From Pelosinus fermentans DSM 17108 (lineage in GTDB: Bacteria > Bacillota > Negativicutes > DSM-13327), in the NCBI RefSeq assembly GCF_000271485.2, contig NZ_AKVN02000001.1, positions 252,001 to 316,000 on the forward strand: a DNA stretch of 64,000 nt, read 5' to 3'. The translations under genes were made by a program, and so were the position numbers. Numbering within the stretch: position 1 is the stretch's first letter; the number at the start of each line of letters is the position of its first letter. Positions 9,774-63,631 of this stretch are shown one piece after another. The notes beneath the pieces were generated by a model. That model was not told the DNA's origin. It did not search any database and was given only the letters and a program-made list of their open reading frames with translations.

Positions 9774-9992
9774 GCAATCACCGCCATTTAAACTTACAGA
9801 AGCTGATATATTATATGCTACATAAAGAATATACGTAACACAGCTGCAACCTCTTTGGAAAATGATCCAAAAGGCAATCGTTTCAATTGGTAAGAGCAGG
9901 AATATTCCATTTTTGTGGGAATACATTCATATAGGTTGCTCACAAATCAGAAAAAGGAACCAATGATATGGTCAATATGGGGAGGGAATCGA

Positions 9993-10469
9993 GTGCCGGA
10001 AGTAGTTGATAACAAAGAAATGGACGAAATTCTGCAGAAGTATGGGTATGAGAAAAGCTGTATTATACCTATATTACAGGAAACACAAGCAAGATATAGA
10101 TATCTGCCTAAGGAAGCCTTTTCTTATCTTTCAGAAAATTTAGGAATCAGCACTGCTAAAATCTATAGTATAGCTACTTTTTATGAAAATTTTTCTCTAG
10201 AGCAAAAAGGCAAATATGTAATAAAAATATGTGATGGAACAGCTTGCCATGTGAGAAAATCCATTCCTATCCTGGAACGGCTGAAAAGCCAGCTTGGACT
10301 TACTGCGGATAAGGTAACGACTGATGATCTTATGTTTACCCTTGAAACGGTTTCCTGTCTTGGGGCGTGCGGGCTAGCACCTGTGCTTACCGTAAATGAT
10401 CAGGTATATCCTGCCATGACGCCGGACAAAGCACAGGAACTTCTTAAGAGGCTCAAGGAGGAAGAATAG
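9993..10469 (+). CDS. hydC: [FeFe] hydrogenase subunit HydC (NuoE-like, 2Fe-2S thioredoxin fold)
   Basis: The 158-residue subunit has the NuoE fold and four cluster ligands C80, C85 (CDGTAC), C122 and C126 (CLGACG). It passes electrons within the soluble hydrogenase HydABC. A GTG start at 9993 is chosen because GGGGAGGG lies 7 bp before it; the upstream open frame has no ribosome site. It is followed by hydB with no gap (stop at 10469, ATG at 10470) and hydA. The order C-B-A is that of trimeric NAD/ferredoxin-linked, often electron-bifurcating, hydrogenases of clostridia and Negativicutes. Confidence 0.93.
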   Translation: MPEVVDNKEMDEILQKYGYEKSCIIPILQETQARYRYLPKEAFSYLSENLGISTAKIYSIATFYENFSLEQKGKYVIKICDGTACHVRKSIPILERLKSQLGLTADKVTTDDLMFTLETVSCLGACGLAPVLTVNDQVYPAMTPDKAQELLKRLKEEE

Positions 10470-12344
10470 ATGTTTTTAAACAGAGAAGATTTTAGAAATG
10501 CCTGTACAACCTATACGGACTCTCTTGCGATGCAAATAAAGAAGATTTTGGTTTGTGCCGGAACGGGATGCGTGGCCGGCGGAGCCATTGAGATTTATGA
10601 ACAATTGATAAAATCCAATGAAATGTATGATGTACCCTGTACGGTGACGTTAGAGAAGGAGCCTCATGACAAATCCATAGGAATCAAAAAGAGCGGGTGC
10701 CATGGGTTCTGCGAAATGGGTCCATTGGTACGAATAGAACCCCAGGGATGGCTGTATATAAAAGTAAAGCCAGAAGACTGTGCTGAGATTATAGAAAAAT
10801 CAATCATTAATGAAACCTTTATAGAACGCTTGGCTTATAAAAAAGAGGGCGTGATCTATCCTACTCAGGAAGAGATTCCGTTTTATAAAAAGCAAACCCG
10901 GCTTGCGCTTGAACATTGCGGGCATATAGATGCCACATCGATCAATGAATATTTGGCAATTGGGGGATACCAAGCATTTACAAAAGCTTTATTTGATATG
11001 AGTCAGGAGGATGTCGTACAGGAAATTGATCTATCTAATTTACGAGGGCGGGGAGGCGGCGGATATCCTACAGGCCGAAAATGGAAGCAGGTAAAAGGGC
11101 AGAATTCCAGCATTAAGTATATTGTCTGCAATGGTGATGAGGGCGATCCGGGTGCATTTATGGATCGGAGCATAATGGAAGGCGATCCTCACAGGGTACT
11201 GGAAGGTATGATGATTGCTGGTGTAGGCTGCGGCTCATCGGAAGGCTACATCTATGTACGGGCGGAATATCCCCTTGCCGTCAGCCGTCTGGAAACAGCA
11301 ATTGGTGAAGCGAAAGAGAGGGGACTTCTTGGCAGAAATATTCTCAGTTCAGGTTTCGACTTTGACATAAAAATATGCAAAGGTGCAGGAGCATTTGTTT
11401 GTGGTGAGGGAAGTGCTCTTACTGCATCAATTGAGGGTAAGCGGGGAATGCCAAGAGTTAAGCCTCCCCGAACAGTTGAACATGGTCTTTTTGATAAACC
11501 TACGGTCCTTAATAATGTAGAGACTTTTGCGAATGTTCCATTTATTATTCATAAGGGGGCTAAGTGGTATAAAGCAATAGGTCCGGAGAACAGTCCGGGA
11601 ACAAAGGCTTTTGCTCTGACAGGAAATATCGAAAATACAGGTCTCATTGAGGTTCCAATGGGGACCACCCTAGGTGAGGTGATATTTGATATTGGCGGTG
11701 GAATGCGGGGTGGGCATGATTTCAAAGCGGTCCAGATTGGCGGACCTTCAGGTGGATGTCTGACCAAGGACCAGCTTGATCTGCCTTTAGATTTTGATTC
11801 TCTTAAAAAGGCGGGGGCGATGATCGGATCTGGCGGTCTCGTGGTAATGGATGAACATACATGCATGGTAGAAGTAGCAAGATTCTTTATGAATTTTACG
11901 CAAAATGAGTCTTGTGGTAAATGCATACCCTGCCGTGAGGGAACGAAACGTATGCTTGAAATCCTGGATCGGATCGTTTCCGGGCAAGGGCTCATAGAAG
12001 ACTTGGATATGTTATTGGAGCTTGCCGACACGATATCAGCCACGGCACTGTGCGGTCTGGGAAAAACTGCAGCATTGCCTGTTGTCAGCACCATTCGAAA
12101 CTTCCGCAAAGAATACGAAGCTCACATCGTCGAAAAGAGATGTCCCTCAAGAACTTGCCAAAAATTAAAAAGAATCTATATTGCTGCAGAAGCTTGCCGC
12201 GGCTGTTCAAAGTGTTCCAGGCTATGCCCGGTGGGGGCAATTAGCGGCAAAATAAAAGAACCGTTCTTGATAGATCCGGTTAAATGCATAAAGTGCGGTG
12301 CATGTATAGAGTCATGTGCCTTCAAAGCAATCAAGGAGGCATGA
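10470..12344 (+). CDS. hydB: [FeFe] hydrogenase subunit HydB (NuoF-like, FMN/NAD-binding)
   Basis: The 624-residue diaphorase subunit carries NAD(H) and FMN sites and several Fe-S clusters. From the N-terminus: a thioredoxin-like 2Fe-2S domain (CAGTGCVAGG, residues ~25-115); the NuoF core with the glycine-rich NAD/FMN loop RGRGGGGYPTGRKW (~192) and CNGDEGDPGAF; an SLBB segment; a [4Fe-4S] site with C482, C485, C488 and C528; and a C-terminal ferredoxin with two CxxCxxCxxxC motifs from C576. This layout is HydB of Thermotoga/Acetobacterium type, in which NAD and ferredoxin are used together. Directly abuts hydC; its end overlaps the hydA ribosome site. Confidence 0.95.
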   Translation: MFLNREDFRNACTTYTDSLAMQIKKILVCAGTGCVAGGAIEIYEQLIKSNEMYDVPCTVTLEKEPHDKSIGIKKSGCHGFCEMGPLVRIEPQGWLYIKVKPEDCAEIIEKSIINETFIERLAYKKEGVIYPTQEEIPFYKKQTRLALEHCGHIDATSINEYLAIGGYQAFTKALFDMSQEDVVQEIDLSNLRGRGGGGYPTGRKWKQVKGQNSSIKYIVCNGDEGDPGAFMDRSIMEGDPHRVLEGMMIAGVGCGSSEGYIYVRAEYPLAVSRLETAIGEAKERGLLGRNILSSGFDFDIKICKGAGAFVCGEGSALTASIEGKRGMPRVKPPRTVEHGLFDKPTVLNNVETFANVPFIIHKGAKWYKAIGPENSPGTKAFALTGNIENTGLIEVPMGTTLGEVIFDIGGGMRGGHDFKAVQIGGPSGGCLTKDQLDLPLDFDSLKKAGAMIGSGGLVVMDEHTCMVEVARFFMNFTQNESCGKCIPCREGTKRMLEILDRIVSGQGLIEDLDMLLELADTISATALCGLGKTAALPVVSTIRNFRKEYEAHIVEKRCPSRTCQKLKRIYIAAEACRGCSKCSRLCPVGAISGKIKEPFLIDPVKCIKCGACIESCAFKAIKEA

Positions 12345-12348
12345 TGCA

Positions 12349-14043
12349 ATGAATACAGAATTTATGGTAATTGATAATATGCCCGTAGAAATAAATGGAG
12401 AAAGAAATATTCTGGATGTAATCAGAAAGGCGGGAATTGACCTTCCAACATTTTGTTACTACTCCGAATTATCTGTTTATGGTGCCTGTCGTATGTGTGT
12501 GGTAGAGGATCATTGGGGGACGATTCAGGCCGCATGCTCCACACCTCCAAAAGCTGGTATGGAGATTCACACGAATACGCCAAGGCTTAGGAAATATAGA
12601 AAGATGATTCTCGAGCTGCTGCTTTCCAATCACTGCCGTGACTGTACAACCTGTGAAAAAAACGGAAAATGCAAGCTGCAGGAGCTGGCGCAGCGTTTTG
12701 GCATAAAACAGGTGCGATTTCACAACACCTCGGAAGATTCAGAGCTTGATACCTCTTCTCTCTGCATTGTTCGGGATAAAAGTAAATGTATACTCTGTGG
12801 TGATTGTGTAAGAATGTGCAATGAAGTGCAGAATGTGGGTGCCATCGATTTTGCTTTTCGCGGATCAAAGATGTGTGTAAGTACAGCATTTGATGAACCT
12901 CTAGCCAATACAAAGTGTGTAGGCTGCGGTCAGTGTTCCGTTGTCTGTCCCACGGGTGCCATCGTGGTTCGAAATGACACAGCGAAACTCTGGAAGGAAT
13001 TAAGTGATAAAAATACAAAAGTAATTGTACAGATTGCTCCTGCAGTAAGGGTGGGCATCGGAAAAGAGCTTGGTTTTTCAGAGGGGCAAAATGTGATGGG
13101 CAGGATTGTTGCAGCTTTAAGACGGATTGGCTTTGATGAAGTGTTTGATACATCTACAGGGGCGGATTTTACCGTATTGGAAGAAGCTGAGGAGTTTAGC
13201 AAAAGGCTGCTAACTGGAGATAACCTGCCGTTGTTCACCTCTTGCTGTCCTGCATGGGTAAGGTATGCTGAACTGAACTATCCTCAGCTGATCAAAAATA
13301 TATCTACATGCCGTTCCCCAATGCAAATGCTGGCGTCAATTCTGAAAGAACATCACAGAAATGATGAAAAGAGGGTTGTTGTTGTTGCAGTCATGCCTTG
13401 TACTGCCAAAAAGCAGGAAGCTGCACGGGATGAATTTAAAGAAGATGGCGTTCCCTATGTGGATTATGTGATCACGACACAAGAACTGATCCATCTTATT
13501 AAAGAAGCGAACCTTATTTTTTCTGAAATAGAGCCTGAAGCTGTAGATATGCCTTTTGGAACCACCAGCGGTTCTGGGGTCATTTTTGGTGTAACTGGAG
13601 GGGTTACTGAAGCCGTCATCAGGCGGCTTTCCGATGATAAATCATCATTTGCACTGCGAGCAATTGCCTTTACAGGGGTACGGGGCATGCAGGGAGTAAA
13701 AGAAGCAAGAATTGATTGCAATGGTCGTGAGGTGAAAATTGCAATTGTCAGCGGTCTGAAAAATGCGGATGACTTAATCAGAAGCATACAACAAGGAGAA
13801 AAACAATATGATTTTGTTGAAGTGATGTCTTGTCCCGGAGGCTGCATCGGCGGTGCGGGTCAGCCGGTTACCAATCGGGATGGGAAGTATAATAGAGGCG
13901 CAGGGCTTTATAATGCAGACCGGATGAGCAATATAAAACGATCAGAAGAAAATCCGATTATAAAAGAGCTTTACGATGGGATGCTAAAAGGGAAGGTACA
14001 TAAGCTGCTTCATGTGAATTATCGAAAATCGGAGATGTATTGA
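12349..14043 (+). CDS. hydA: [FeFe] hydrogenase catalytic subunit HydA
   Basis: The 564-residue catalytic subunit produces or oxidises H2 at the H-cluster. N-terminal 2Fe-2S domain (CYYSELSVYGACRMC), a His-Cys [4Fe-4S] site (HCRDCTTCEKNGKC) and a two-cluster ferredoxin domain (CILCGDCVRMC, CVGCGQCSVVC) wire electrons to the active site. H-cluster signatures are complete: TSCCPAW (C299 proton relay, C300 ligand), MPCTAKKQE (C351), MSCPGGCIGG (C495, C499). Numbering is almost that of clostridial CpI. The start at 12349 follows AAGGAGG by 9 bp. Maturases HydEFG are not in the window. A hairpin follows the stop. Confidence 0.96.
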   Translation: MNTEFMVIDNMPVEINGERNILDVIRKAGIDLPTFCYYSELSVYGACRMCVVEDHWGTIQAACSTPPKAGMEIHTNTPRLRKYRKMILELLLSNHCRDCTTCEKNGKCKLQELAQRFGIKQVRFHNTSEDSELDTSSLCIVRDKSKCILCGDCVRMCNEVQNVGAIDFAFRGSKMCVSTAFDEPLANTKCVGCGQCSVVCPTGAIVVRNDTAKLWKELSDKNTKVIVQIAPAVRVGIGKELGFSEGQNVMGRIVAALRRIGFDEVFDTSTGADFTVLEEAEEFSKRLLTGDNLPLFTSCCPAWVRYAELNYPQLIKNISTCRSPMQMLASILKEHHRNDEKRVVVVAVMPCTAKKQEAARDEFKEDGVPYVDYVITTQELIHLIKEANLIFSEIEPEAVDMPFGTTSGSGVIFGVTGGVTEAVIRRLSDDKSSFALRAIAFTGVRGMQGVKEARIDCNGREVKIAIVSGLKNADDLIRSIQQGEKQYDFVEVMSCPGGCIGGAGQPVTNRDGKYNRGAGLYNADRMSNIKRSEENPIIKELYDGMLKGKVHKLLHVNYRKSEMY

Positions 14044-14818: not shown

Positions 14819-14967
14819 AGATTACAGAACTCTGCAGCAAATGATGAATCATGTAAAATAGTGTATGGTATAAGGACGGGAAATAAATGCTTCTCCAGAC
14901 CAAGTAATTGAGGCTAACATCATTTAAATATAAAACTCCTACAAGAATGTGGGAGTTTTTTGTTTTT
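14819..14967 (+). ncRNA. Candidate small RNA gene (about 145 nt)
   Basis: The stretch is bounded by a near-consensus promoter (14784-14812) and a strong intrinsic terminator (14932-14967). Inside, no frame with a ribosome site is longer than a handful of codons; the longer frame crossing the area starts upstream of the promoter. It does not match any riboswitch class I can recognise. The neighbouring PTS operon has its own sigma-54 promoter more than 100 bp further on, so this is not simply its leader. An independent small RNA is the simplest reading, but a relic of a deleted gene cannot be excluded. Confidence 0.5.
14932..14967 (+). terminator. Intrinsic terminator of the candidate small RNA
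   Basis: Twelve paired positions (AAAACTCCTACA with TGTGGGAGTTTT, one G-T) around the tetraloop AGAA, followed by TTTTTTGTTTTT. Confidence 0.85.
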
Positions 14968-15008
14968 GATTAGTTTTGTATGTTTTCGTGCCAATAGTAT
15001 GAATCGTT

Positions 15009-15020
15009 ATGTAATTACAT
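15009..15020. promoter_or_regulatory. Candidate activator site for the sigma-54 promoter
   Basis: ATGTAATTACAT is a perfect 12-bp palindrome about 90 bp upstream of the predicted start of transcription. That is the usual distance for enhancer sites bound by LevR/NifA-type activators. Binding is inferred from position only. Confidence 0.4.
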
Positions 15021-15079
15021 TTATGTTCAAAATCGATAGTAACAGTGTTTACAAGGGGCTTACCTGCTTAATTTGTAAC

Positions 15080-15095
15080 TGGCACGATAGTTGCA
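15080..15095 (+). promoter_or_regulatory. Sigma-54 (-24/-12) promoter of the PTS operon
   Basis: TGGCAC-GATAG-TTGCA matches the sigma-54 consensus TGGCAC-N5-TTGCW without mismatch, 40 bp upstream of the IIB start codon. A sigma-54 activator of LevR type is encoded at the end of the same cluster. Confidence 0.92.
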
Positions 15096-15135
15096 TATAT
15101 TTATAGGTGAAATAAAATCTGGAGGAGATGAGAGC

Positions 15136-15441
15136 ATGAAAGAAAAAGTGACAATCCTTTGCTGCTGCGGAGCAGGCATATGTACATCCAATTACTTAAA
15201 AGAAGAAATTGAAGATCGAATTAAACAGGAAGGTCTAAAAAATGTCAAAATCGTTTTATGCAGAGTGAGTGATGTAGACGAAGCGATCAGCGGGGCTGAC
15301 TTGCTTGTTACAACTGTGGAAATGAAGGCAGCATACCCCGTACCAATGATAAGGGCTTTAGGGATCATGTTAGATGATAAGGCTGCAAAAAAGGCACTGG
15401 ATCAAATTGTGAATGAAGTGAAAAAAATTATGCAAGAATAA
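15136..15441 (+). CDS. PTS transporter subunit IIB (galactitol/Gat type)
   Basis: A 101-residue cytoplasmic phosphocarrier. The phospho-cysteine loop sits at the N-terminus (LCCCGAGICTS, active Cys most likely C11), followed by an alternating beta-alpha fold as in GatB-type IIB domains. It takes phosphate from IIA and gives it to the sugar bound to IIC. The start at 15136 follows GGAGGAG by 8 bp; the open frame upstream covers the sigma-54 promoter and is not coding. First gene of the operon IIB-IIC-IIA-dehydrogenase-aldolase. Confidence 0.9.
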   Translation: MKEKVTILCCCGAGICTSNYLKEEIEDRIKQEGLKNVKIVLCRVSDVDEAISGADLLVTTVEMKAAYPVPMIRALGIMLDDKAAKKALDQIVNEVKKIMQE

Positions 15442-15515
15442 ATGGTTCTGATAGCTGGATTTAGATATTTTAAGATAGTGTGATGGTAACGAGAATATGT
15501 ATGGAGGGTAAAAAG

Positions 15516-16790
15516 ATGGAATTTATAGATTCAATCACCAATGGGCTGTCTGCGTTCTTTAGCTTTGATTCAACCGTCACTATACTAGGTATTATTATTG
15601 CCATCTCTCTGCTTGTGAAAGTACCAATCAAGAAAGCTATACTCGGTGCCTTGAAAGTTTCTATCGGGCTTACAGGTCTATTCTTAATTGTAGATTTGAT
15701 ACAGACCGCCATGGTAAATCCAATAAGCAATATGATCTCTCTGTATGGCATCAATAAAAGTATAGTAGATATTGGCTGGGGTTCTGTAGGATATGCTTTT
15801 GGCAATACATATGGTTATTTTGGGGTGCTCGTATTTTTAATCGTAAATGTAATATTAGTGTCTGTGCGATTTACCCAAACCATTTATGTTGATGTTTTTA
15901 ATACATGGAGAGCGATGCTTCTGGCAGGAATGATCGGTGTTACTACCGGAAACTTCTGGATAGCCACGTTTGCTGTTGTAATCTTTCTTATCATTGATGT
16001 AAAAGCTGCAGATATTGCGGCGCCATATATAGAAAAAATCAATAATTTTCCTCCTGGAGGCTCATGGCCCCATGGCAGTCACTTTTCATTTCAGGCATGC
16101 ATTGCCATACCAATTGAATGGGTTTTAAAAAGAATACCCGTTATTAAGGATATCAATATTAAGGCCGAAACAATTGAAGAAAAATTTGGAATCTTTGGAG
16201 AGACAACAGTCATGGGAGCAATACTGGGCATTGTCATTGGGCTCTTTAGCCAAGTCGGTATTATGCCCTCTCTGTTACTTGGAGTGAAGATGGCAGCCGC
16301 ATTTCTTCTTCTTCCAAGAATGGCGGCCATACTTGTGGAAGGTTGGTTCCCCGTGATTAAAGCTGCAAGACAGATACTGGTAAGTAAGCTAAAACGGGAT
16401 GATGTGCGTATCGCACTTGATTGTTCAACGGTTATTGGACATGCAGCAGTTGTCCCTACAACACTCATTATGTATCCGTTGGCATTGCTGATATCGGTTA
16501 TACTTCCAGGCAATCAGATGATTTCATCCGTAAGTCTAATCATCGTTCTCTGGGAGAGTGCAGCGGTGAATGCGATCACAGAAGGAAACATATTTCATAA
16601 CATTATCATATTATCCCTGATCGTTTGTCTCTTCTGCTGGGGAGCTACTTTCATGGCGGGCCCTATGACTCATTTGGCGGTTTCCATGGGATATGATGCT
16701 GCTAAAGGTCTAGTGTCCAATTGGGATGCGGCAGGGACTCCCGGACTGGTTTTAGTATATGGATTATTTTCTTGGATATTTGGTTTTTAA
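15516..16790 (+). CDS. PTS transporter subunit IIC (galactitol/Gat type)
   Basis: The 424-residue membrane protein forms the sugar channel of the PTS. It shows about ten hydrophobic segments and the family's conserved cytoplasmic/periplasmic loop blocks (SWPHGSHFSFQACIA near residue 185 and WESAAVNAITEGNIFHN near 345). The start at 15516 follows GGAGGG by 7 bp; the frame is open to 15480 but without a ribosome site. Gat-type IIC proteins carry polyols and some pentoses or sugar acids; the real substrate cannot be read from the sequence. Confidence 0.9.
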   Translation: MEFIDSITNGLSAFFSFDSTVTILGIIIAISLLVKVPIKKAILGALKVSIGLTGLFLIVDLIQTAMVNPISNMISLYGINKSIVDIGWGSVGYAFGNTYGYFGVLVFLIVNVILVSVRFTQTIYVDVFNTWRAMLLAGMIGVTTGNFWIATFAVVIFLIIDVKAADIAAPYIEKINNFPPGGSWPHGSHFSFQACIAIPIEWVLKRIPVIKDINIKAETIEEKFGIFGETTVMGAILGIVIGLFSQVGIMPSLLLGVKMAAAFLLLPRMAAILVEGWFPVIKAARQILVSKLKRDDVRIALDCSTVIGHAAVVPTTLIMYPLALLISVILPGNQMISSVSLIIVLWESAAVNAITEGNIFHNIIILSLIVCLFCWGATFMAGPMTHLAVSMGYDAAKGLVSNWDAAGTPGLVLVYGLFSWIFGF

Positions 16791-16868
16791 CGCTTGGCGT
16801 GTAAATGAGATTGTTATAGTAAGATTTCTTCATATTGGCAGCTACATAGCTAAGGTATGAAAAGATAC

Positions 16869-16922
16869 GCTTACACATCAGGGGCTCATAAGAGAAAGTT
16901 CATTATAAGAAGATGTGTAAGC
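16869..16922 (+). promoter_or_regulatory. 11-bp intercistronic stem-loop between IIC and IIA
   Basis: GCTTACACATC (16869-16879) and GATGTGTAAGC (16912-16922) are perfect inverted arms with a 32-nt loop, ending about 40 bp before the IIA start. No T-run follows, so an mRNA-processing or stability element is more likely than a terminator. Confidence 0.55.
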
Positions 16923-16963
16923 ACATGATCAGCAAACAGCAAAAGACTAGGAGGAGGGGAAAT

Positions 16964-17437
16964 ATGAGCAATGAAGCAGACACTATATTTTATGATGTAG
17001 TAATGTTGAAGAACATAACAACAAAAGAAGCAGCAATACATTCTTTAACAAATCATTTGCTGGAGAAAGGGTATGTCAATGAACATTATGAACATGCAAC
17101 AATTGAAAGGGAAGATGCCTATCCTACTGGTCTTCCAACCAAACCGATTGCTATAGCAGTTCCTCATTCTAAACACGAGAATGTAATAAAGCAGGCGGTT
17201 GTACTGGGGATATCCGATCACCTGATCGAGTTTTCAGAAATGGGAAACAGTGACTCCAAACTGAATGTTGGAATCCTATTTTTACTGGCACTAAAGGGTG
17301 AAAATGGCCATATTAATTACTTGAAGAATATTGTTAATTATTGCAAGGTGGAAGAGAATATTACAAAACTCTATGGTGTAAAATCGGCAGAGGAAGGGTT
17401 ACAAATATTTGTATCTGAGATCGTAAATGCTGATTAA
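16964..17437 (+). CDS. PTS transporter subunit IIA (fructose/Ntr/Gat fold)
   Basis: A 157-residue phosphocarrier with the PtsN/GatA fold. The active-site block is TGLPTKPIAIAVPHSKHE, with the phosphorylated His in AVPHS (about residue 68). It receives phosphate from HPr and passes it to IIB. The start at 16964 lies 8 bp after AGGAGGGG. It is separated from IIC by 173 bp holding an 11-bp stem-loop, a gap that may set its expression relative to IIB/IIC. Confidence 0.9.
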   Translation: MSNEADTIFYDVVMLKNITTKEAAIHSLTNHLLEKGYVNEHYEHATIEREDAYPTGLPTKPIAIAVPHSKHENVIKQAVVLGISDHLIEFSEMGNSDSKLNVGILFLLALKGENGHINYLKNIVNYCKVEENITKLYGVKSAEEGLQIFVSEIVNAD

Positions 17438-17462
17438 AACAAAATAAGAGGAGGATGTTAGT

Positions 17463-18563
17463 ATGGATAAAGGTAAAAAAATAAAAGCATTAGTCGTGGG
17501 AGACGATTGGGTAAAAACGAAAGATCTGATTGAAGCTACCAAGCGTGTATTAGAAGGTTATGATTATGAAATCGATTCGTTTGATCAAGTAATGGATAAA
17601 CCGATGAGCAGAGAAAAAAAAGACGATATAGGCGATGACAGTGTTACCGAATATTGCGGGCATCCCCAAGAACTGATCAGCAGGATTGATGGCGTCAATC
17701 TGCTGGTGGTTCATACATCTCCTGTTACAAAGCAAGTGATTGAGGCAGGCAAGGATCTTATTGCGATTGGCTGCTGCAGATCTGATGCTGTAAGTGTAAA
17801 TGTAGACGCTGTTACGGATAAAGGAATTTATTTCTTTAATGCTCCAGGACGGTCCGTTGAACCCGTATCGGATCTGACGATCACCTTCGCTTTGGCCCTT
17901 TGCAGAAATATATTAAGAGCTGACCGGTACGTAAAAGAGGGCAGATGGGCAGGCGATCTCAATAGAGAAGTACCAAGCTGGGAAGAGTTTGAAAGCTTTA
18001 GAGGGCTTACCCTTAAAAATAAAAAATTTGGCGTGGTTGGCCTTGGTAAAATAGGGCGGAAAGTTGCCGAGAAGGCAGCCGGACTTGGTATGGACGTACA
18101 AGTGTATGATCCGTTTTTAGATAAAAAGATAGTAGGTGAGTATGGCACGGTATGTACTCTGGAGGAACTGTTTGTAAACAGCGATTTTATAACCATTCAC
18201 ATTCCCCCTGTTGAATCAAACAGAGGTATCATCAGCAGAGAACTCTTTAATAAGATGAAACCTTCCGCATACTTCATCAATGTTGCAAGAGGAGAAATTA
18301 TTGACGAAGAAGCGCTGATTGATGTATTACAGAAGGGGAAAATAGCGGGAGCAGCCCTGGATGTATATTATACAGAGCCTCTGCCTGGGACCAGTCCTTT
18401 AGTCAAATTGGACAATGTGATTCTAACTCCTCATTTAGCAGGGCAAAGGAAAGATGTTTCAGAAGGGTCAGCCTCCATATTAGAAGGAACGATGAAACCA
18501 TTCTTCCAAGAAAACAGCCTTGCTACTTGCTTTAATTCCGCTGAAATTAAGAAAAATAAATAA
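17463..18563 (+). CDS. D-isomer-type 2-hydroxyacid dehydrogenase (SerA/PdxB-like)
   Basis: The 366-residue NAD-dependent oxidoreductase has the family's complete catalytic set: dinucleotide motif GLGKIG (~residue 200), Arg in NVARGEIID, Glu in YYTEPLP and His in TPHLAGQ. It lacks the C-terminal ACT domain of biosynthetic 3-phosphoglycerate dehydrogenases. In this operon it should oxidise or reduce the phosphorylated compound delivered by the PTS, for example a phosphorylated aldonic acid as in PdxB-type chemistry; this is inference. AGAGGAGG precedes the start, 25 bp after the IIA stop. Confidence 0.85.
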   Translation: MDKGKKIKALVVGDDWVKTKDLIEATKRVLEGYDYEIDSFDQVMDKPMSREKKDDIGDDSVTEYCGHPQELISRIDGVNLLVVHTSPVTKQVIEAGKDLIAIGCCRSDAVSVNVDAVTDKGIYFFNAPGRSVEPVSDLTITFALALCRNILRADRYVKEGRWAGDLNREVPSWEEFESFRGLTLKNKKFGVVGLGKIGRKVAEKAAGLGMDVQVYDPFLDKKIVGEYGTVCTLEELFVNSDFITIHIPPVESNRGIISRELFNKMKPSAYFINVARGEIIDEEALIDVLQKGKIAGAALDVYYTEPLPGTSPLVKLDNVILTPHLAGQRKDVSEGSASILEGTMKPFFQENSLATCFNSAEIKKNK

Positions 18564-18616
18564 GCGGCAGGCGTAAGTGCCTTAGAATAAAATATAGAGA
18601 AAATGAAGGTGAAAGT

Positions 18617-19450
18617 ATGCTTACAGATATGAAAAGCATTCTGGCAGATGCCAAGAAGAGGTCTTACGGGGTGGCAGCTCCTAATGCATGGAATGAAGAT
18701 AGCATAAGAGCAGCAATCGGAGCTGCCGAAAGAGAAAAAGCGCCAATCATTATTGCCCTTTATCCTGTAATGGCTGATATTTTTGAATTTGGTAAAATTG
18801 CCGTAGAAATGGCTAAGAACGCATCGGTACCAGTTGCAGTTCATTTAGATCATGGACAAGAGTTAGAGCAGGTAGTGAAAGCTATACGTGCCGGTTTTAC
18901 TTCGGTTATGGTTGATCGTTCAACCTTGCCTTTTGACAAGAACGTAGAAGCCGTGAAAGAAATTGTTACGTTTGCTCACGCCGTAGGAGTAACGGTAGAA
19001 GCAGAATTAGGTCATGTTGGGCAGGGGTGTGACTATACCGAAACCAAGGATCAAGGACTTACAGACCCAAATGAAGCAATCCAATTTGTAGAAATGACAG
19101 GTGTGGATTGTCTTGCTGTTGCTGTCGGAACTTCCCATGGTGTGTATAAAGGAAAGCCAGAATTGCAGTTTGATTTGCTGGATAAGTTAAATCATGCAGT
19201 AGATGTTCCTTTAGTACTTCATGGATGCTCAGGCACGGGAGATAAAAACTTAAAAAAGGCCATCGGGTATGGAATAACAAAACTCAATTTATATACTGAT
19301 TTGGATATGGCAGGATATACTTTATTTCAAGAATCGATAAAAAAACAAGAAATAAGTAAAATAACAGAAGCTTGCAGTTTTATGTTTAAAGGCTACTCTG
19401 ATAAACTGACACACTACATACAATGGTTTGGAGCAAGCGGTAAAGCATAG
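18617..19450 (+). CDS. Class II (metal-dependent) ketose-bisphosphate-type aldolase
   Basis: A 277-residue zinc aldolase of the FbaA/GatY/KbaY family, expected to split a phosphorylated ketose or related 2-oxo compound to give dihydroxyacetone phosphate. Visible ligands and catalytic residues: HLDHGQ (catalytic Asp and first Zn His), VEAELGHVGQ (Glu), GTSHGVYKG (second Zn His), LHGCSGTG (third Zn His) and NLYTDL. The last replaces the more common N-x-D-T-D phosphate loop. Ribosome site AAGGTGAAAG is modest. It is the last structural gene before a terminator, so cleavage by this enzyme is probably the final step of the encoded pathway. Confidence 0.88.
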   Translation: MLTDMKSILADAKKRSYGVAAPNAWNEDSIRAAIGAAEREKAPIIIALYPVMADIFEFGKIAVEMAKNASVPVAVHLDHGQELEQVVKAIRAGFTSVMVDRSTLPFDKNVEAVKEIVTFAHAVGVTVEAELGHVGQGCDYTETKDQGLTDPNEAIQFVEMTGVDCLAVAVGTSHGVYKGKPELQFDLLDKLNHAVDVPLVLHGCSGTGDKNLKKAIGYGITKLNLYTDLDMAGYTLFQESIKKQEISKITEACSFMFKGYSDKLTHYIQWFGASGKA

Positions 19451-19482
19451 TAATTTAATACAGTAAAAAATTATTTCTATTT

Positions 19483-19525
19483 AGAGATATGTAAGCTTAC
19501 TCCTATCAGCTTGCATATCTCTTTT
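19483..19525 (+). terminator. Terminator of the PTS operon
   Basis: 15-bp arms AGAGATATGTAAGCT / AGCTTGCATATCTCT (one mismatch) around a 10-nt loop, then TTTTAG. Confidence 0.85.
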
Positions 19526-19690
19526 AGAAAATAGAGAGTAGACTAATTTTTTCTAAATGGACCAGCGATTTGTAACTTAGTGTAAAAAAATGTGGAAAAA
19601 TGTAATGAATTTCTGTATAAGTATAACTTGAAATTTCTAATTTGCGTTATAATAATGTCATTACATCACTATTTTGATAAGGAGAAAAAT

Positions 19691-22591
19691 ATGGCGGAAG
19701 GCAACCGGAAGGACATTAGGGAATTAATTAAGAATGAATGCCCCCAAGAGCCATTAACGGATGAGCAAATATCACAAAAGTTATCCATCTTGCGGGAAAC
19801 CGTTACTAATATTAGAAAGAAACTGAATATACCCAGTTCTCGAAACCGGAAAAGAATGAACGTGAAAAAGGCTGTAGAACTAATCAAGACAAAAAAATCG
19901 GACATAACGATAACGAGTCTTGTAGCCAAGCTGAAACAGCAGGGGTTTACAGTGTCAAGAAGCTATATCGGGGAGATCATCAATAGTGAAGGCAATGAAA
20001 TAACAAAAGAATTAGAGTCACGTGCTGAAGATGAAAATGAAATGGATAGCTTTCAGAAATTAACAGGCTATGATGGAAGTCTTTCCAATAATATTAAACA
20101 GGGCAAGGCATCCGTATTATATCCCCCATTTGGCCTCCCTACCCTTATTATAGGGGAAAGCGGTACTGGCAAAACCTTGTTTGCAGAATGCATCTATCAA
20201 TATGCGGTGCAGAAGAAAATAATAGAAGTGGATGGTCCTTTTGTATCCCTAAATTGTGCTGACTACAGTGATAATCCTCAACTTTTGCTTTCCATGCTGT
20301 ATGGATACAAAAAAGGGGCCTTTACAGGAGCGAATCAAGATACAGAAGGTCTTGTAGAGCGCGCCAATAAAGGGATCCTTTTCTTAGATGAAATACATCG
20401 CCTGCCTCCTAAGGGACAGGAAATGCTATTTTCTATTTTGGATAAAGGAAAATTTAGAAGACTTGGTGAGGTTGTAAATGAGCGAAAGTCTCAGATTTAT
20501 TTTATCGGTGCAACCACTGAGAATATTGAATCCTCCCTGCTGCTAACCTTCAGAAGAAGAATTCCTATGATCATAGAACTGCCATCCCTAAAGGATCGAT
20601 CCATTAAAGAGAAAATTCAGCTGATTTATAGTTTCTTTCAGGAAGAAGCAAATCGGACTCATTTAAAAATTTATGTAAAGGCTAAAATTATGGAAGCCTT
20701 TGTTCTGAAAAAATATTCAGGCAATATAGGTCAACTTAAAAGTGAAATTCAAGTCACCTGTGCAAATGCTTATGTTGAGAAAATGAATAACAGCAAGGAT
20801 GAAATTAATATTGGCTTTAATGAGATGTTATATCATAATTTCTTTAACAATAATACAGAAAATTCCGAAATACAGACAACAAAGCTCACAATTACCTTTA
20901 AGGATATGTTATTCATTCCAAATGCAGCGAATAAAGGGGAACACTTTGTTACTGCAAATGATAGTCATTACTCGCTGCCAAAAGATATTTATGAAAAAAT
21001 CGAAGAAAAATATTATGAACTGAAAAAAGCAGACGTTACATCTGCTGAAATAGAAAAAAACATTTGGAATTTTATATTAAGTAATTTCAGCATGATGGGA
21101 ATTGATTCAAATAACGATAAAAATGTAACGTCTCTAGATGAATTAAAATATCTTGTGGGTGAAAATATTGCAGTAGTCGTAAAAGAGTTCATAAAAAGGA
21201 TTAAAAAAGATCATTCTCAATTGCAGGTAAATGAAAAGGTTGCGATATACTTAGCGATTCACATCAGTGAAGCGATGAAAAGGATTAAATTTAAACAAGA
21301 TATCATTAATCCCAATCTTGTCTATATAAAAGAAAACCTCAAAGCAGAATATGATATGGCATGCAGTCTGGTACATGATTTGGAGGCCAATAATAAAGTC
21401 AGGATTCCTGAAGGGGAAGTCGGGTTTATTGCTATGTATATTAATGAGCTGTTAAAACCCAGGAGCAGCAAAAGCAGAATCACTATAATTGTCATTTCCC
21501 ATGGAAAAATAGCGTCAGAGATGATCGCTGTTGCCAATAAAATGATGAATGTAGATTTCCCAATTGCTGTGGACATGCCTTTCAATGTGAATCCAATAAG
21601 GATCTTTGAACAAATCATTGAAATTTCTAAAACCTTAGATAGCCAAAGCGGTATACTGTTTTTTGTAGACATGGGATCGCTGCTGAATGTTGGAGAAATT
21701 GTTGAAAAAAGAACCGGTATTAAAACTCGCACCATTGACAGGGTAGACCTTGTTTCTGTCATGGAAGCGATTCGAAAAATATATATATCCGAGGAAACCC
21801 TTGATGACATTTATTACGATATAATGAATTCTAAACACACCTATCATATGGTGTCAACAAATCATTCGGATAAGCCCTTAGCTTTAATTGCTATGTGTCT
21901 TACAGGTCATGGAGTTGCTATAAAAATAAAAGAACTTTTATCTGCAAATTACCCTCATATAAAAGTAATCTCCTTAAGCATATTAGATGCTAACGTAAAG
22001 CAGGAAATACACAATTTAAAACAACAATATACGATTCCAGCGATTATTGGTACGATGAATCCTTACATAGAAGGGATTAACTTTATACCCTTTGAAAGCA
22101 ATTTTACCCAGGACAAAAAGATGCTTCTTGATCAGGTATTAAAGCAGAAAAATTACAATAGTCTTAAGAAGATTTTTAGAGATGATTTTATCATGATTGA
22201 CCTAGCATGTAAAACAAAGCAGGAAGTAATCGAAACCATGAGTATGGTTCTTTTTAATAACGGTTTTATTAAAAAAGGTTATATAGACTCCGTATTTGAA
22301 AGAGAGAATATGAGTAGTACGTGTTTTAAGAAGAATGTAGCCATCCCCCATGGATTACCCTCATTTGTTAATGAAACTTCGATCATTTCTGCAAAACTAA
22401 GCCAAGCCATTGAGTGGGATGACAGCAAAAATTTAGTCAATTTGGTATTTTTACTTGCAGTAAAAGATGATGATATTAATATTATCAATGATTTGTTCAG
22501 GTTACTGAAACAAAAAAATAATATAGATGAATTTTTGAAAGCAAAAAATCGTTTTGAATTTATAAAAGTATTGTATGATTCCTTTTCATAA
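19691..22591 (+). CDS. LevR-type sigma-54 activator with PTS regulatory domains
   Basis: The 966-residue activator should control the sigma-54 promoter at 15080. Order: N-terminal winged-helix/HTH region (~1-115); AAA+ domain with Walker A GESGTGKT (~155), GAFTGA (~209) and Walker B GILFLDEI (~230); PRD with AIYLAIHIS (~475-590); IIA-Man-like domain with H604 in VISHGKIASE (~596-720); IIB-Gat-like domain (~727-820); and a C-terminal fructose/Ntr-type IIA with H887 in VAIPHG (~830-966). B. subtilis LevR ends in a second PRD instead. Phosphorylation of these histidines would report sugar flux. The start at 19691 follows AAGGAG by 6 bp. Confidence 0.9.
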   Translation: MAEGNRKDIRELIKNECPQEPLTDEQISQKLSILRETVTNIRKKLNIPSSRNRKRMNVKKAVELIKTKKSDITITSLVAKLKQQGFTVSRSYIGEIINSEGNEITKELESRAEDENEMDSFQKLTGYDGSLSNNIKQGKASVLYPPFGLPTLIIGESGTGKTLFAECIYQYAVQKKIIEVDGPFVSLNCADYSDNPQLLLSMLYGYKKGAFTGANQDTEGLVERANKGILFLDEIHRLPPKGQEMLFSILDKGKFRRLGEVVNERKSQIYFIGATTENIESSLLLTFRRRIPMIIELPSLKDRSIKEKIQLIYSFFQEEANRTHLKIYVKAKIMEAFVLKKYSGNIGQLKSEIQVTCANAYVEKMNNSKDEINIGFNEMLYHNFFNNNTENSEIQTTKLTITFKDMLFIPNAANKGEHFVTANDSHYSLPKDIYEKIEEKYYELKKADVTSAEIEKNIWNFILSNFSMMGIDSNNDKNVTSLDELKYLVGENIAVVVKEFIKRIKKDHSQLQVNEKVAIYLAIHISEAMKRIKFKQDIINPNLVYIKENLKAEYDMACSLVHDLEANNKVRIPEGEVGFIAMYINELLKPRSSKSRITIIVISHGKIASEMIAVANKMMNVDFPIAVDMPFNVNPIRIFEQIIEISKTLDSQSGILFFVDMGSLLNVGEIVEKRTGIKTRTIDRVDLVSVMEAIRKIYISEETLDDIYYDIMNSKHTYHMVSTNHSDKPLALIAMCLTGHGVAIKIKELLSANYPHIKVISLSILDANVKQEIHNLKQQYTIPAIIGTMNPYIEGINFIPFESNFTQDKKMLLDQVLKQKNYNSLKKIFRDDFIMIDLACKTKQEVIETMSMVLFNNGFIKKGYIDSVFERENMSSTCFKKNVAIPHGLPSFVNETSIISAKLSQAIEWDDSKNLVNLVFLLAVKDDDINIINDLFRLLKQKNNIDEFLKAKNRFEFIKVLYDSFS

Positions 22592-22653
22592 ATTCTGCAT
22601 TGTAGAATTTTTGATGATGGTATTCAATAATATACAAAAGAGAGGGAATACAG

Positions 22654-22959
22654 ATGATTGTTACATGCGTTACTATTTATGTAAAAGAACCGTTTATATC
22701 TAATTTTATTGAAGCTACTCTTGATAATCACAGAAATTCAATAAAAGAGGAAGGAAATCTTCGCTTCGATGTACTGCAATGCACTAATGATGAAAGCAGA
22801 TTTTTTCTTTATGAAGCCTACTCCACGGAGGAGGCTGCCGCAGCCCATAAAAAGACAGCTCATTATTTAAAATGGAGAGATACAGTTGCCGACTGGATGG
22901 CACGACCACGAGCAGGAGTAGCACATTCTGTTATTGCTCCTCTTGAAAAGGATTTTTGA
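22654..22959 (+). CDS. lsrG: LsrG-family isomerase (antibiotic biosynthesis monooxygenase fold)
   Basis: A 101-residue ferredoxin-like alpha/beta protein that closely follows E. coli LsrG in key blocks: EEGNLRFDVLQ at residues ~31-41, then FLYEAYS, HKKTAHYLKW and MARPR. LsrG isomerises phospho-AI-2 (a phosphorylated dione) to a 3-hydroxy-2,4-dione phosphate. Here the gene lies 62 bp after the LevR-type regulator and is followed by a terminator, so it probably belongs to the same PTS regulon. No lsrK, lsrF or lsrB is nearby, so a related phosphorylated hydroxy-ketone could be the true substrate. Start preceded by AGAGAGGG. Confidence 0.75.
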   Translation: MIVTCVTIYVKEPFISNFIEATLDNHRNSIKEEGNLRFDVLQCTNDESRFFLYEAYSTEEAAAAHKKTAHYLKWRDTVADWMARPRAGVAHSVIAPLEKDF

Positions 22960-22992
22960 GAAAGTAAGTAATTTCAAATGGAGTGTAGTAAG

Positions 22993-23020
22993 GGACAGGT
23001 TCAACGAACCTGTTCTTTTT
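22993..23020 (+). terminator. Terminator after lsrG
   Basis: A 10-bp stem (one G-T) around the tight loop AAC, with ACAGGTTC/GAACCTGT as core, followed by TTTTTATTTT. Confidence 0.85.
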
Positions 23021-23062
23021 ATTTTAGCATTCACTAGAATTTATAAATTTTATAGAGACGTT

Positions 23063-23194
23063 GAACACAGAGGACACAGAGTTCGCAGAGAGCACAGAGG
23101 TTTTAACCCTTATCTATTTTTTCTCAGTGTTCTCTGCGCCTCTGCGGTTCGGTTTACTTTCTATGTTTTAAAGGCTGCGAAGTGTTTTTCTTAT
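23063..23194 (+). repeat. Interspersed mosaic repeat, copy 4 (CACAGAG variant)
   Basis: Left arm GAACACAGAGGACACAGAG and right arm CTCTGCGCCTCTGCGGTTC are built of 9-bp units with CTCTG in place of CTTTG. The tail TTTTAAAGGCTGCGAAGTG then TTTTTCTTAT ends at 23194. It stands between lsrG and the promoter of the MarR gene. Confidence 0.85.
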
Positions 23195-26691: not shown

Positions 26692-28653
26692 ATGCCTAAG
26701 GCTCAGGATCACAATCATACGCAGAGGATCTCTTTGGATCATGACTTTGAAGTTCTTTACGAGAAGGCTTGTGAAGCAGGTATTGAGACAGCATTTTCTC
26801 GGGCAAAACAAACCCCTGTTCCTTGTCCTTTTGGCTCTGCAGGAGTTTGCTGTAGACACTGTTTGGAAGGTCCATGCCGTATTGGATTCAATGGCAAAGG
26901 GCCCCAGGAAGGCATATGTGGAGCGAATGGAGATACGATTGTTGCTCGCAACTTATTAACGATGATGATCGAAGGTGCGGCAGGACACGCAGAGCATGGC
27001 AGAGAGACGGCGTTGGCCTTATTAGAAGCTTCAGAAGGAAACTCCGATTATCAGATTAAAGGTGTAGAAAAGCTATATCAGGTAGCTGCTGGTCTGGGAA
27101 TTGAAACGAACGGCAAAGCAGTGGAGGATATTGGAAAGCAAGTGGCTCTCAAGGCATTAGAAGACTTTCAGAAACAAGCAGGGGCGATGAATTGGCTAAC
27201 GCTTCACGCTCAGCAGCAATCAATCGATAAGTGGGATGAGCTTGGCATAACCCCTGTTAACGTTCATTTAGAGATTTCCAAAGCTGTTACCCGAACATCA
27301 ATGGGATGTGATGCTGATCCGGTAAACCTTCTTTTGGGCTGTTTGACCATGGGATTGGTAGATGGTTTTGGCGGTCTGCATTTGTCTTCGGATTTACAAG
27401 ACATTTTGTTTGGTGTACCTAAATTGGTCAAATCCAATTTTAGACTCGGTGTAATAAAAAAAGAAATGGTTAATATTGCAGTACATGGTCATGTGCCTTT
27501 ATTGTCGGAGAAAATCGTAGAATGGTCTCGGAAATTATCGGAAGAAGCAAAAGCTGCTGGAGCCGCAGGCATTAATGTTGTGGGGATTTGCTGTTCGGGC
27601 AATGAAGTGCTCATGCGTCATGGCATACCTGCAGCTTCCAGTTTTTCATCTCAGGAACTGGTCATTGTAACGGGGATGCTCGAAGCAATGGTCGTAGACG
27701 TGCAGTGCATTATGCCTGGCATTCAAAAAGTAGCGGAATGTTATCACACCGAGATTATTACAACTCTGCCTTATGTTAATATTGCAGGATCTACCCATGT
27801 TGATTTCCACACGGATAAGGCGGATAAAGCGGCTCAGGATATCGTTCGCAAAGCAATTGCCAACTTTCCCAAGAGAGAGCATCAGAAAATTACCAGCTTT
27901 ACAGGGACTGTAGAAGCATATGCAGGCTTTTCCAATGAACAAATCATAGAAGCGCTAAGTGCGTTAAATAAAGAAGATCCCCTTAAGCCCTTGCTTGATG
28001 CAATAGCAAGCGGAGCAATCCGGGGTGTTGCGGCCATCGTTGGCTGTACAAATGTCCGTGAATTTCAAGACTGGGGAAATGTTACTGTTGCCAAAGAGCT
28101 GCTCAAGAATAATGTTCTGGTCGTTGCTACAGGTTGTTCGGCTCATTCTTTAGCAAAACATAACTTGATGAACATGCAAGGCCTGGAATACTGCGGTGAA
28201 TCCTTGCGGGGTGTCTTAAAGGCGATTGGGCAAGCTGTTGGTCTTGAATCTCTGCCGCCGACTCTTCATATGGGAAGCTGTGTTGATAATTCCCGTCCTG
28301 CCGATCTGTTGACGGCTGTGGCAAATCGATTAGGCGTGGAAGTGAAGGATTTGCCTGCTGTTGGATCTTGTCCGGAAACCCATAGCCCGAAAGCATTGGT
28401 CATTGGAACATACTTTTTAGCCAATGGGGTGGATGTTCACGTTGGTGTGAATCCTCAAGTATCTGGTTCCCAGTTTGTCACAGATGTACTATGCAATGGT
28501 GCGAAAGATGACGGTTTGAATTTAGAAAAGCTTTTTGGCGGTAAATTGATCTATGAAAAAGATCCGGTGAAGGCAGCAGCTATTTTGCTAAGACGAATTG
28601 AAGAAAAGCGCCTGGCACTGGGTCTCAGTTCAAAATTGGAGTCAGGAATATGA
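26692..28653 (+). CDS. cooS: Anaerobic Ni-Fe carbon monoxide dehydrogenase catalytic subunit
   Basis: The 653-residue homodimeric enzyme oxidises CO to CO2 and passes electrons to ferredoxin-type carriers. Cluster B/D ligands are C45, C53, C54, C57, C62 and C76. The Ni-Fe C-cluster set is complete: H267, C301 (CCSGNEV), C339 (CIMPG), C452 (GCTNVREF), C482 (GCSAHS) and C530 (GSCVDNSR), with catalytic K567 in SPKA. The numbering runs a constant 4-6 residues ahead of Carboxydothermus CODH-II. GGGGAGG precedes the ATG. No acetyl-CoA synthase, cooF or energy-converting hydrogenase genes lie nearby, so this is a stand-alone CODH. Overlaps cooC by 4 bp. Confidence 0.96.
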   Translation: MPKAQDHNHTQRISLDHDFEVLYEKACEAGIETAFSRAKQTPVPCPFGSAGVCCRHCLEGPCRIGFNGKGPQEGICGANGDTIVARNLLTMMIEGAAGHAEHGRETALALLEASEGNSDYQIKGVEKLYQVAAGLGIETNGKAVEDIGKQVALKALEDFQKQAGAMNWLTLHAQQQSIDKWDELGITPVNVHLEISKAVTRTSMGCDADPVNLLLGCLTMGLVDGFGGLHLSSDLQDILFGVPKLVKSNFRLGVIKKEMVNIAVHGHVPLLSEKIVEWSRKLSEEAKAAGAAGINVVGICCSGNEVLMRHGIPAASSFSSQELVIVTGMLEAMVVDVQCIMPGIQKVAECYHTEIITTLPYVNIAGSTHVDFHTDKADKAAQDIVRKAIANFPKREHQKITSFTGTVEAYAGFSNEQIIEALSALNKEDPLKPLLDAIASGAIRGVAAIVGCTNVREFQDWGNVTVAKELLKNNVLVVATGCSAHSLAKHNLMNMQGLEYCGESLRGVLKAIGQAVGLESLPPTLHMGSCVDNSRPADLLTAVANRLGVEVKDLPAVGSCPETHSPKALVIGTYFLANGVDVHVGVNPQVSGSQFVTDVLCNGAKDDGLNLEKLFGGKLIYEKDPVKAAAILLRRIEEKRLALGLSSKLESGI

Positions 28654-29545: not shown

Positions 29546-29663
29546 ACCCCTTTGTGTCCTTCGCGTCTTCGCGGTTAAAAATCGTTTTATTTTACCCTAT
29601 CTCTCTTTTCTCTGTGTTCTCTGCGCCTCTGTGGTTCGGTTCTGTTTATATGTTTTAAAAGAT
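29546..29663 (+). repeat. Interspersed mosaic repeat, copy 5 (two right arms in tandem)
   Basis: First a CTTTGTGTCCTTCGCG plus TCTTCGCGGTT arm, then after a TTTTATTTTACC spacer a second right arm of the CACAGAG type (CTCTGTGTTCTCTGCG then CCTCTGTGGTTC) and a degenerate tail. No left arm. The structure looks like two copies fused. Confidence 0.8.
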
Positions 29664-41238: not shown

Positions 41239-41375
41239 GAACCACAAAGGCACAATGTCGCTGCTGCGGCACACAAAGGAGAGCACAAAAAATATAAATA
41301 TCCCCCTTTGTGTCCTTTGTGCCTTTGTGGTTCAATTCGTTTATATGTTTAAAAGACTCGAAGCGTTTTTCTTAA
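41239..41375 (+). repeat. Interspersed mosaic repeat, copy 8 (full-length)
   Basis: Complete head (left arm GAACCACAAAGGCACAA, side hairpin CGCTGCTGCGGC, right arm CCTTTGTGCCTTTGTGGTTC) and tail TTTAAAAGACTCGAAGCG then TTTTTCTTA. It lies between two convergent genes. Confidence 0.9.
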
Positions 41376-57402: not shown

Positions 57403-57516
57403 GAAACACAGAGCACAAAGATGTAGATAAACACACAGGACGTGTTTATTTTATAGCTTTGTGTTCTGTGTGTTTCAAAAAGGCTATGTCTTAAAGGATG
57501 AGTTAGTGTTTCTTAT
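57403..57516 (+). repeat. Interspersed mosaic repeat, copy 11 (divergent, GAAACACAGAG type)
   Basis: Left arm GAAACACAGAGCACAAAG and right arm CTTTGTGTTCTGTGTGTTTC with a central ACACG/CGTGT stem; tail CTTAAAGGATGAGTTAGTG then TTTCTTATA. The most diverged copy, directly followed by copy 12. Confidence 0.75.
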
Positions 57517-63420: not shown

Positions 63421-63631
63421 CCCGTGGCACACAAAGGAGAACACAAAAAATATAAATAAAATCCTTTGTGTACTTTGCGAAAGAGAGCCGGGAAAGAATG
63501 ATTGAACCGCAGAGACGCAAAGCGCGCAAAGAGGGATTCTTTAATCCTATTAATTATTTCTCTGTGTTCTCTGCGCCTCTGCGGTTCTAATGTGTTTTAT
63601 ATATTTTAAAGGACGCATAAGGATTTTCTTA
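63421..63631 (+). repeat. Interspersed mosaic repeat, copy 13 (composite)
   Basis: A truncated first unit (GTGGCACACAAAGGAG to CCTTTGTGTACTTTGCG) is followed by a CACAGAG-type unit (left arm GAACCGCAGAGACGCAAAG, right arm CTCTGTGTTCTCTGCG then CCTCTGCGGTTC) and the tail TTTTAAAGGACGCATAAGG then ATTTTCTTA. The tail codes for the end of the neighbouring LysR-type protein. Confidence 0.85.

Follow-up and report, generated by a model that had tools for sequence, protein, structure and literature searches.

Relation to described systems

The galactitol operon gatYZABCD of Escherichia coli combines a phosphotransferase system (PTS) of the Gat family with a dehydrogenase and a GatY-type class II aldolase. 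The levan (levDEFG) and D-glucosaminate (DagR) operons, which use PTSs of the mannose family, have a LevR/DagR-type activator beside the PTS under a sigma-54 promoter. Here we describe a locus of Pelosinus fermentans DSM 17108, found at positions 15080-22959 of a stretch of 64,000 nucleotides that we call the window. The locus is a conserved PTS operon of a known general kind, with a pathway as yet unnamed, and it is very likely a sigma-54-controlled PTS route to dihydroxyacetone phosphate (DHAP). Its conserved gene set probably imports a sugar alcohol or sugar acid, which is then oxidised and split to feed glycolysis.

When compared to gatYZABCD, the operon has neither a GatD-type dehydrogenase nor GatZ among its open reading frames (ORFs). 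An enzyme of the 2-hydroxyacid-dehydrogenase fold (2HDH) takes the place of the dehydrogenase, and control is of the sigma-54/LevR type. Identity to the E. coli gat proteins is 29% for IIB (GatB), 20% for IIA and 34% for the aldolase (GatY). The E. coli ydj cluster (YdjH kinase, YdjI aldolase) contains the closest solved relative of the aldolase, YdjI (6ofu), with 40% identity, but there a sugar kinase and putative transporters replace the PTS, and putative zinc-binding dehydrogenases replace the 2HDH. In the case of levDEFG and DagR-type operons, the enzymes differ from those of the window operon. A LevR entry appears in PMC6615313, and the words “galactitol”, “aldolase” and “hydroxyacid” are absent from its main text.

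A further likeness is seen on haloarchaeal plasmids (Halalkalicoccus, Haladaptatus), where a class II fructose-bisphosphate aldolase (FBA), an FGGY kinase and a 2HDH stand side by side. These clusters share with the window the class II aldolase and two particular arginines in the dehydrogenase, and a kinase replaces the PTS. Unlike the window operon they are archaeal and without PTS, with 30-31% identity in the dehydrogenase and 27% in the aldolase, and their records name no pathway. Lastly, the locus encodes an ABM-fold protein with 45% identity to LsrG of the E. coli lsr operon, but it lacks LsrK, LsrR, LsrACDB and LsrF.

Among the matches listed from titles and abstract openings of the open-access literature, there was no description of an operon or pathway of this makeup, nor anything recognisable as the cluster of two-arginine 2HDH, FGGY kinase and aldolase discussed below. 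This agrees with an earlier note on this DNA, made from the sequence alone, which could name no pathway for the combination.

Gene content of the operon

All seven genes that the earlier note had named are present in the window, all on the + strand, according to ORFs and to Pfam and NCBIfam profiles. The first three encode the PTS. IIB (15136-15441) is Gat-like (PF02302), with a CCCG motif at residues 9-12 and 77% identity to the Lucifera protein. IIC (15516-16790) is a member of the EIIC-GAT family (PF03611), reaching 157.9 bits against a gathering cut-off of 24.2, and IIA (16964-17437) is of EIIA type 2 (PF00359), with a VPHS motif that includes His68. The galactitol-specific models all score below their cut-offs, with 238.4 of 542.2 bits for IIC, 35.2 of 95 for IIB and 47.7 of 139 for IIA.

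The next two genes encode the enzymes. The 2HDH (17463-18563) belongs to this fold by its PF02826 match (199.4 bits) and by its triad of Arg276, Glu305 and His324, and has in addition Arg106 and Arg130. It is below the curated cut-offs for SerA (PGDH; 216.5 against 454 bits) and PdxB (102.4 against 434 bits). The class II zinc aldolase (18617-19450) is of the FBA/GatY/YdjI type (PF01116, 286.4 bits against a cut-off of 25.5), with HLDH at residues 76-79. It passes the broad TIGR00167 model (239.2 against 215.6 bits), and the GatY/KbaY-specific models are below cut-off.

The activator (19691-22591) has the LevR/DagR-type architecture, with a sigma-54-type AAA+ domain (PF00158) holding GAFTGA at residue 209, a PRD (PF00874) and two EIIA-like domains (PF03610 and PF00359). 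The DagR equivalog model gives it 461.8 bits, below the cut-off of 1400, and a PADLOC scan returned three RtcR-type matches over the N-terminal and AAA region. The last gene (22654-22959) encodes the LsrG-like ABM-domain protein. These profiles, together with the conservation reported below, support a sigma-54/LevR-type Gat-family PTS that feeds a SerA-fold dehydrogenase and a zinc aldolase, as had been proposed.

Promoter and transcription units

The sigma-54 promoter at 15080-15095 on the + strand (TGGCAC-N5-TTGCA, TGGCACGATAGTTGCA) is an exact consensus match, as claimed before, and the single one in the 64 kb. At least one match was also found in 11 of 100 shuffles, so that the match alone is modest evidence. 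We accept the promoter because it is conserved: all 16 operon loci, including five from Pelosinus, have a sigma-54-type site 43-66 bp ahead of the IIB start. A half-site TGTAAC (15074-15079, + strand) abuts the -24 element, and TGTAA(C/T) adjoins this element directly at all 16 loci.

Further upstream, 70 bp from the sigma-54 site, the palindrome TGTAATTACA is found at 15010-15019, once in the window. It recurs 69-82 bp upstream of the sigma-54 site at 10 of 16 operon loci and is missing from two Propionispira and four variant operons. This is probably the binding site (UAS) of the LevR-type activator. A terminator-like hairpin is also seen upstream of the operon at 14932-14959, and is strong (z -4.8 for 14920-14975); no obvious + strand gene ends there.

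The sigma-54 unit is closed after the aldolase gene by a terminator hairpin at 19483-19522 (+ strand) with a 15-bp stem, giving -23.8 kcal/mol and z -6.2 for 19475-19535. It was not listed by a simple terminator scan, whose limit the hairpin loop exceeds. Given this strong hairpin, the activator and LsrG-like genes are most likely a separate, second transcription unit, which ends at the terminator after the LsrG-like gene (22990-23018, + strand; a 13-pair stem followed by a T-rich tail, z -4.8 for 22980-23035). The hairpin between these two genes is weaker (z -2.5). The evidence for a sigma-70-like promoter before the activator (TTGAAA-17-AATAAT, 10/12; 19628-19656, + strand) is weak, with 30 matches to the pattern in the region and 32.2 in shuffles.

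Conservation and variant operons

The four closest named loci are from an uncultured Pelosinus sp., two P. fermentans and P. propionicus, with 98-99% identity in the dehydrogenase. Pelosinus, Propionispora, Lucifera, Propionispira and genome G026 share the core order IIB-IIC-IIA-2HDH-aldolase-activator. In terms of distribution, the dehydrogenase is carried by 5 of 8 genomes of the genus sample, by 10 of 300 sampled genomes of the class (E up to 1e-85) and by 1 of 398 of the phylum sample (at 1e-75), the latter being the window's own. IIC (1e-120) was found in 12 of 117 class genomes and in 6 of 64 genera.

The most conserved parts, compared with Propionispora-type genomes and G026, are IIB (82-88% identity) and IIC (81-85%, the range for orthologues in other genera with a single 2HDH). 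Less conserved are the dehydrogenase (approximately 70%), the aldolase (60-62%), the activator (56-58%) and IIA (54.5-56.5%). Among the best 25 of 306 plasmid records, relatives of IIC have at most 32.1% identity.

Some variations of this operon were found in four genomes (G045, G187, G013 and G010), where IIC is kept (73-83% identity) and the 2HDHs are others of the same group, with class II aldolases. Two of them, G045 and G187, have the order 2HDH-aldolase-2HDH. The G013 variant (L085 1166-12990) is composed of a 2HDH, a glycerol-3-phosphate-type antiterminator, an aldolase, the PTS, the activator, a second 2HDH, an SDR and an FGGY kinase, and it links the PTS and kinase versions of the pathway. 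Its kinase scores 227.9 bits as a xylulokinase and 227.6 as a kinase of autoinducer 2 (AI-2), both far below cut-off. G010 matches the first part of the same layout up to IIA, where the contig ends, with the antiterminator judged by eye.

Dehydrogenases with two extra arginines

Both Arg106 and Arg130 are invariant in 13 of 13 aligned rows of variant-operon and plasmid 2HDHs that had been preselected as PTS- or FGGY-linked, and both occur in 12 of 12 PTS-linked 2HDHs examined. Neither is present in SerA, PdxB or GhrB of E. coli. In the best solved relative of the window enzyme, 1wwk, the printed alignment has Gly and Ala at these two positions.

We looked at this signature, which lay outside the focus of the earlier note, in 21 of the 352 plasmid records with a 2HDH match. 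Eleven loci have both arginines and ten have neither. An FGGY kinase homologue lies within 5 kb in 11 of 11 two-arginine loci, versus 0 of 10 without the arginines, and a DHAP-type aldolase homologue in 7 of 11 versus 2 of 10. Eleven of the loci (ten first, H9 later) were hand-picked from the top 30, and among these H2 and H5 were chosen after the FGGY kinase was visible; without these two, the FGGY linkage is 9 of 9 versus 0 of 10. The other ten were hand-picked from a 24-row spread listing, blind to their neighbours, except that the family cluster of H58 had already been seen; taken alone, they give 2 of 2 versus 0 of 8. Fewer than 11 of the two-arginine cases are independent, because three of the rows are closely similar copies of a single Rhodobacterales cluster and two are closely similar copies of a single haloarchaeal one.

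The Rhodobacterales plasmids contain the two-arginine 2HDH, a class II fuculose-phosphate-type aldolase, an FGGY kinase and an acetolactate-synthase-like enzyme (L048 6974-11774, L058 6965-11773, L086 4968-9820). CoA transferases are found before this cluster and a molybdoenzyme after it, and the records name no pathway.

A tree built from 36 rows joins 16 of its 23 two-arginine members in one group (support 96/87), within which the PTS-linked enzymes of variant operons nest among FGGY-linked ones (99/97). To judge by the haloarchaeal and Rhodobacterales clusters, PTS and FGGY kinase look as if they were interchangeable phosphorylating steps. Since the two-arginine enzymes track with kinases, a phosphorylated substrate is suggested, and its phosphate would be bound by Arg106 and Arg130, to judge from where the alignment puts them in the site. 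The tree leaves room both for a single origin of the two-arginine enzymes and for several.

The LsrG-like gene

The earlier note had made the LsrG-like protein a step of the pathway. In Pelosinus its gene adjoins the operon every time (5 of 5, including G007, whose operon lies on two contigs), but it does so in none of 10 assessable operons outside this genus (G017, G034, G050, G026, Lucifera, two Propionispira, G045, G187 and G013). A copy elsewhere in the genome was found in three Propionispora-type genomes (83-85% identity) and in G187 (71%). Seven genomes that have the operon or a variant returned no match, namely G010 (84% complete), G013, G045, G026, Lucifera and two Propionispira; for the last three the search had no positive control of its own, and the same query matched in companion searches. 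The earlier note had itself proposed the gene neighbourhoods of this family as a check, and the clusters outside Pelosinus, which lack the adjacent gene, largely speak against its proposal.

We also considered the orphan copies as hidden members of the regulon and rejected this, as no sigma-54 site lies close upstream of them and no TGTAATTACA occurs in the four stretches around them (L038, L039, L040 and L063). The copy of G187 (L063 9393-14485) is near a DeoR-like regulator, glycyl-radical activase-like frames and a glycyl-radical enzyme of the PFL2/glycerol-dehydratase group, with transposase-like remnants on the opposite side. The glycyl-radical enzyme was scanned and the other neighbours were read by eye. 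A PTS role for this copy was rejected on account of these neighbours.

At the level of genomes the picture is different. The gene is present in 9 of 300 class genomes, and 9 of 9 also carry an orthologue of the PTS IIC, unlinked in four. At the genus level, IIC is in 3 of 3 LsrG-like-positive genera versus 6 of 64 overall (p approximately 5e-4, on the doubtful assumptions that the genera are independent and the sample is fair). The IIC of G187 was tested separately and is not shown among the 12 positives of 117. An accessory link between the LsrG-like gene and the PTS therefore remains, which speaks against a pure passenger. It seems to be an optional companion outside the sigma-54 unit, and not a pathway enzyme.

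As for the protein itself, the LsrG model gives it 88.4 bits against a cut-off of 135. Among solved structures it matches 2omo (called DUF176) best, with two LsrG entries next, and it has no match in the PADLOC scan. In the phylum sample of 299 genomes it was found in two, the window's own and G451 (51% identity). Plasmid relatives are limited to one record, from Stanieria (L045 6001-7509), where a protein of 60% identity is directly followed by an iron-containing alcohol dehydrogenase, and not by lsr genes. A set of lsr transporter, kinase and LsrF was seen neither around the window gene or the orphan copies, where ORF lists were inspected by eye, nor around the annotated Stanieria gene; LsrK, LsrB and LsrF were not searched genome-wide. 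A search for luxS gave 0 of 51 genomes, including the window's own, with a control query that matched in 5 of 14 genomes.

Proposed pathway and alternatives

With its substrate present, the LevR-type activator, probably bound at TGTAATTACA, would switch on one sigma-54 unit made of IIB-IIC-IIA, dehydrogenase and aldolase. The PTS would import a polyol or aldonate-like compound and phosphorylate its terminal CH2OH. The 2HDH-fold enzyme would then oxidise the carbon beside CH2-O-phosphate or, for a sugar acid, adjust the oxidation state to the same ketone, and the class II aldolase would split the ketose-1-phosphate-like compound into DHAP and an aldehyde. DHAP-type aldolases require a ketone next to CH2-O-phosphate, and for this reason the dehydrogenase would most simply be what supplies it. 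The route would need three steps and no isomerase, which fits a dispensable LsrG-like gene whose product would be an accessory outside the sigma-54 unit. Gene content, promoter, terminator, conservation and the arginine signature with its link to kinases were observed directly. We infer the order of the enzymes, the position of the oxidation, the DHAP product and the binding of the activator, and for the specific chemistry of phosphorylation, oxidation and cleavage we see slightly less than an even chance. The first of two readings in the earlier note, with import, oxidation and cleavage to DHAP, comes close to this model; its isomerisation by the LsrG-like protein was given up.

More tentatively, and with some doubt, the two-arginine subfamily may have shifted from oxidation beside a carboxylate to oxidation beside CH2-O-phosphate. 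It would then be the middle step of an undescribed modular DHAP route in Negativicutes, haloarchaea, Actinobacteria and Alphaproteobacteria, formed by a PTS or FGGY kinase, the oxidation, and a class II aldolase of the FBA or fuculose-phosphate type. Genomes hold 2HDHs named by fold only, and FGGY kinases named loosely after xylulose or AI-2, without a pathway. If the subfamily does use phosphorylated polyols or sugar acids as substrates, its members in bacteria and archaea would be re-annotated by a signature of two residues, which would also predict DHAP-yielding pathways.

Several observations weigh against these proposals. Enzymes of the 2HDH fold normally act beside a carboxylate, and oxidation beside CH2-O-phosphate would be unusual for them. 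The sample behind the signature has few loci, some of them redundant and some not chosen blind; in 4 of its 11 two-arginine loci an aldolase homologue is missing from the surrounding 5 kb, and 2 of the 10 others have one. In the tree, the five rows of the window clade and two plasmid rows have no supported position, with one origin shared with the other two-arginine enzymes in 32% of bootstrap trees and with long-branch warnings. Furthermore, the variant operons carry two 2HDHs, more than a single oxidation accounts for; as between the proposed oxidation and the keto-acid chemistry described next, this gives no clear preference.

The dehydrogenase could instead be an ordinary 2-keto-acid reductase, acting before or after cleavage, in a route where the PTS imports a ready ketone (5-ketogluconate, 4-ketopentonate or a hexuronate ketose) and the aldolase releases DHAP with glyoxylate or tartronate semialdehyde. 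This would suit the usual 2-hydroxy and 2-keto acid substrates of the fold, the annotation of YdjI in E. coli K-12 as an octuluronate-1-phosphate aldolase, and two keto-acid steps in the variants; the DagR-type score of the activator is also reminiscent of sugar-acid PTS operons. However, the two arginines are absent from the glyoxylate reductase GhrB as well as from SerA and PdxB, the association with kinases suggests a phosphorylated substrate, and no glycerate or glycolate gene was seen in the operon, so that we consider this route possible though somewhat unlikely. A diverged operon for galactitol or a related hexitol is improbable, since IIC, IIB and IIA are far below the galactitol cut-offs and GatD and GatZ are missing, even if the EIIC-GAT family and the GatY-like aldolase point that way.

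The remaining alternatives give the LsrG-like protein a role. In one, the phosphate of a sugar acid with four or five carbons would undergo oxidation at C2, then isomerisation by this protein and finally cleavage to DHAP. Adjacency in all five Pelosinus operons and the shared presence with IIC, including unlinked cases and all three genera, speak for it, but the seven operon genomes without the gene, its place behind a terminator and the regulator gene, the bare upstream regions of the orphan copies and the low PdxB score of the dehydrogenase make it unlikely. The other is the second reading of the earlier note, in which AI-2-like diones are imported by the PTS and broken down. Similarity to E. 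coli LsrG and the near-equal xylulokinase and AI-2 kinase scores in G013 can be cited in its favour. We nevertheless rejected it as very improbable, given the failed LsrG cut-off and the negative luxS search, with no lsr genes at the locus and with the closer Stanieria relative beside an alcohol dehydrogenase. As a limit on the luxS result, AI-2 from other organisms could still be taken up where luxS is lacking. The LsrG-like gene is thus poor evidence for AI-2 uptake through a PTS, and a false lead is weakened.

Other features of the window

A dispersed CACAGAG-type repeat is found at 23066-23138, 29601-29625, 41306-41321, 57457-57472 and 63560-63575, with 8 matches at up to 2 mismatches versus a mean of 0.02 in shuffles. 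By sequence appearance only, electron-bifurcating hydrogenase-like genes are located upstream of the operon (9915-14043) and a carbon monoxide dehydrogenase-like gene downstream (26692-28653).

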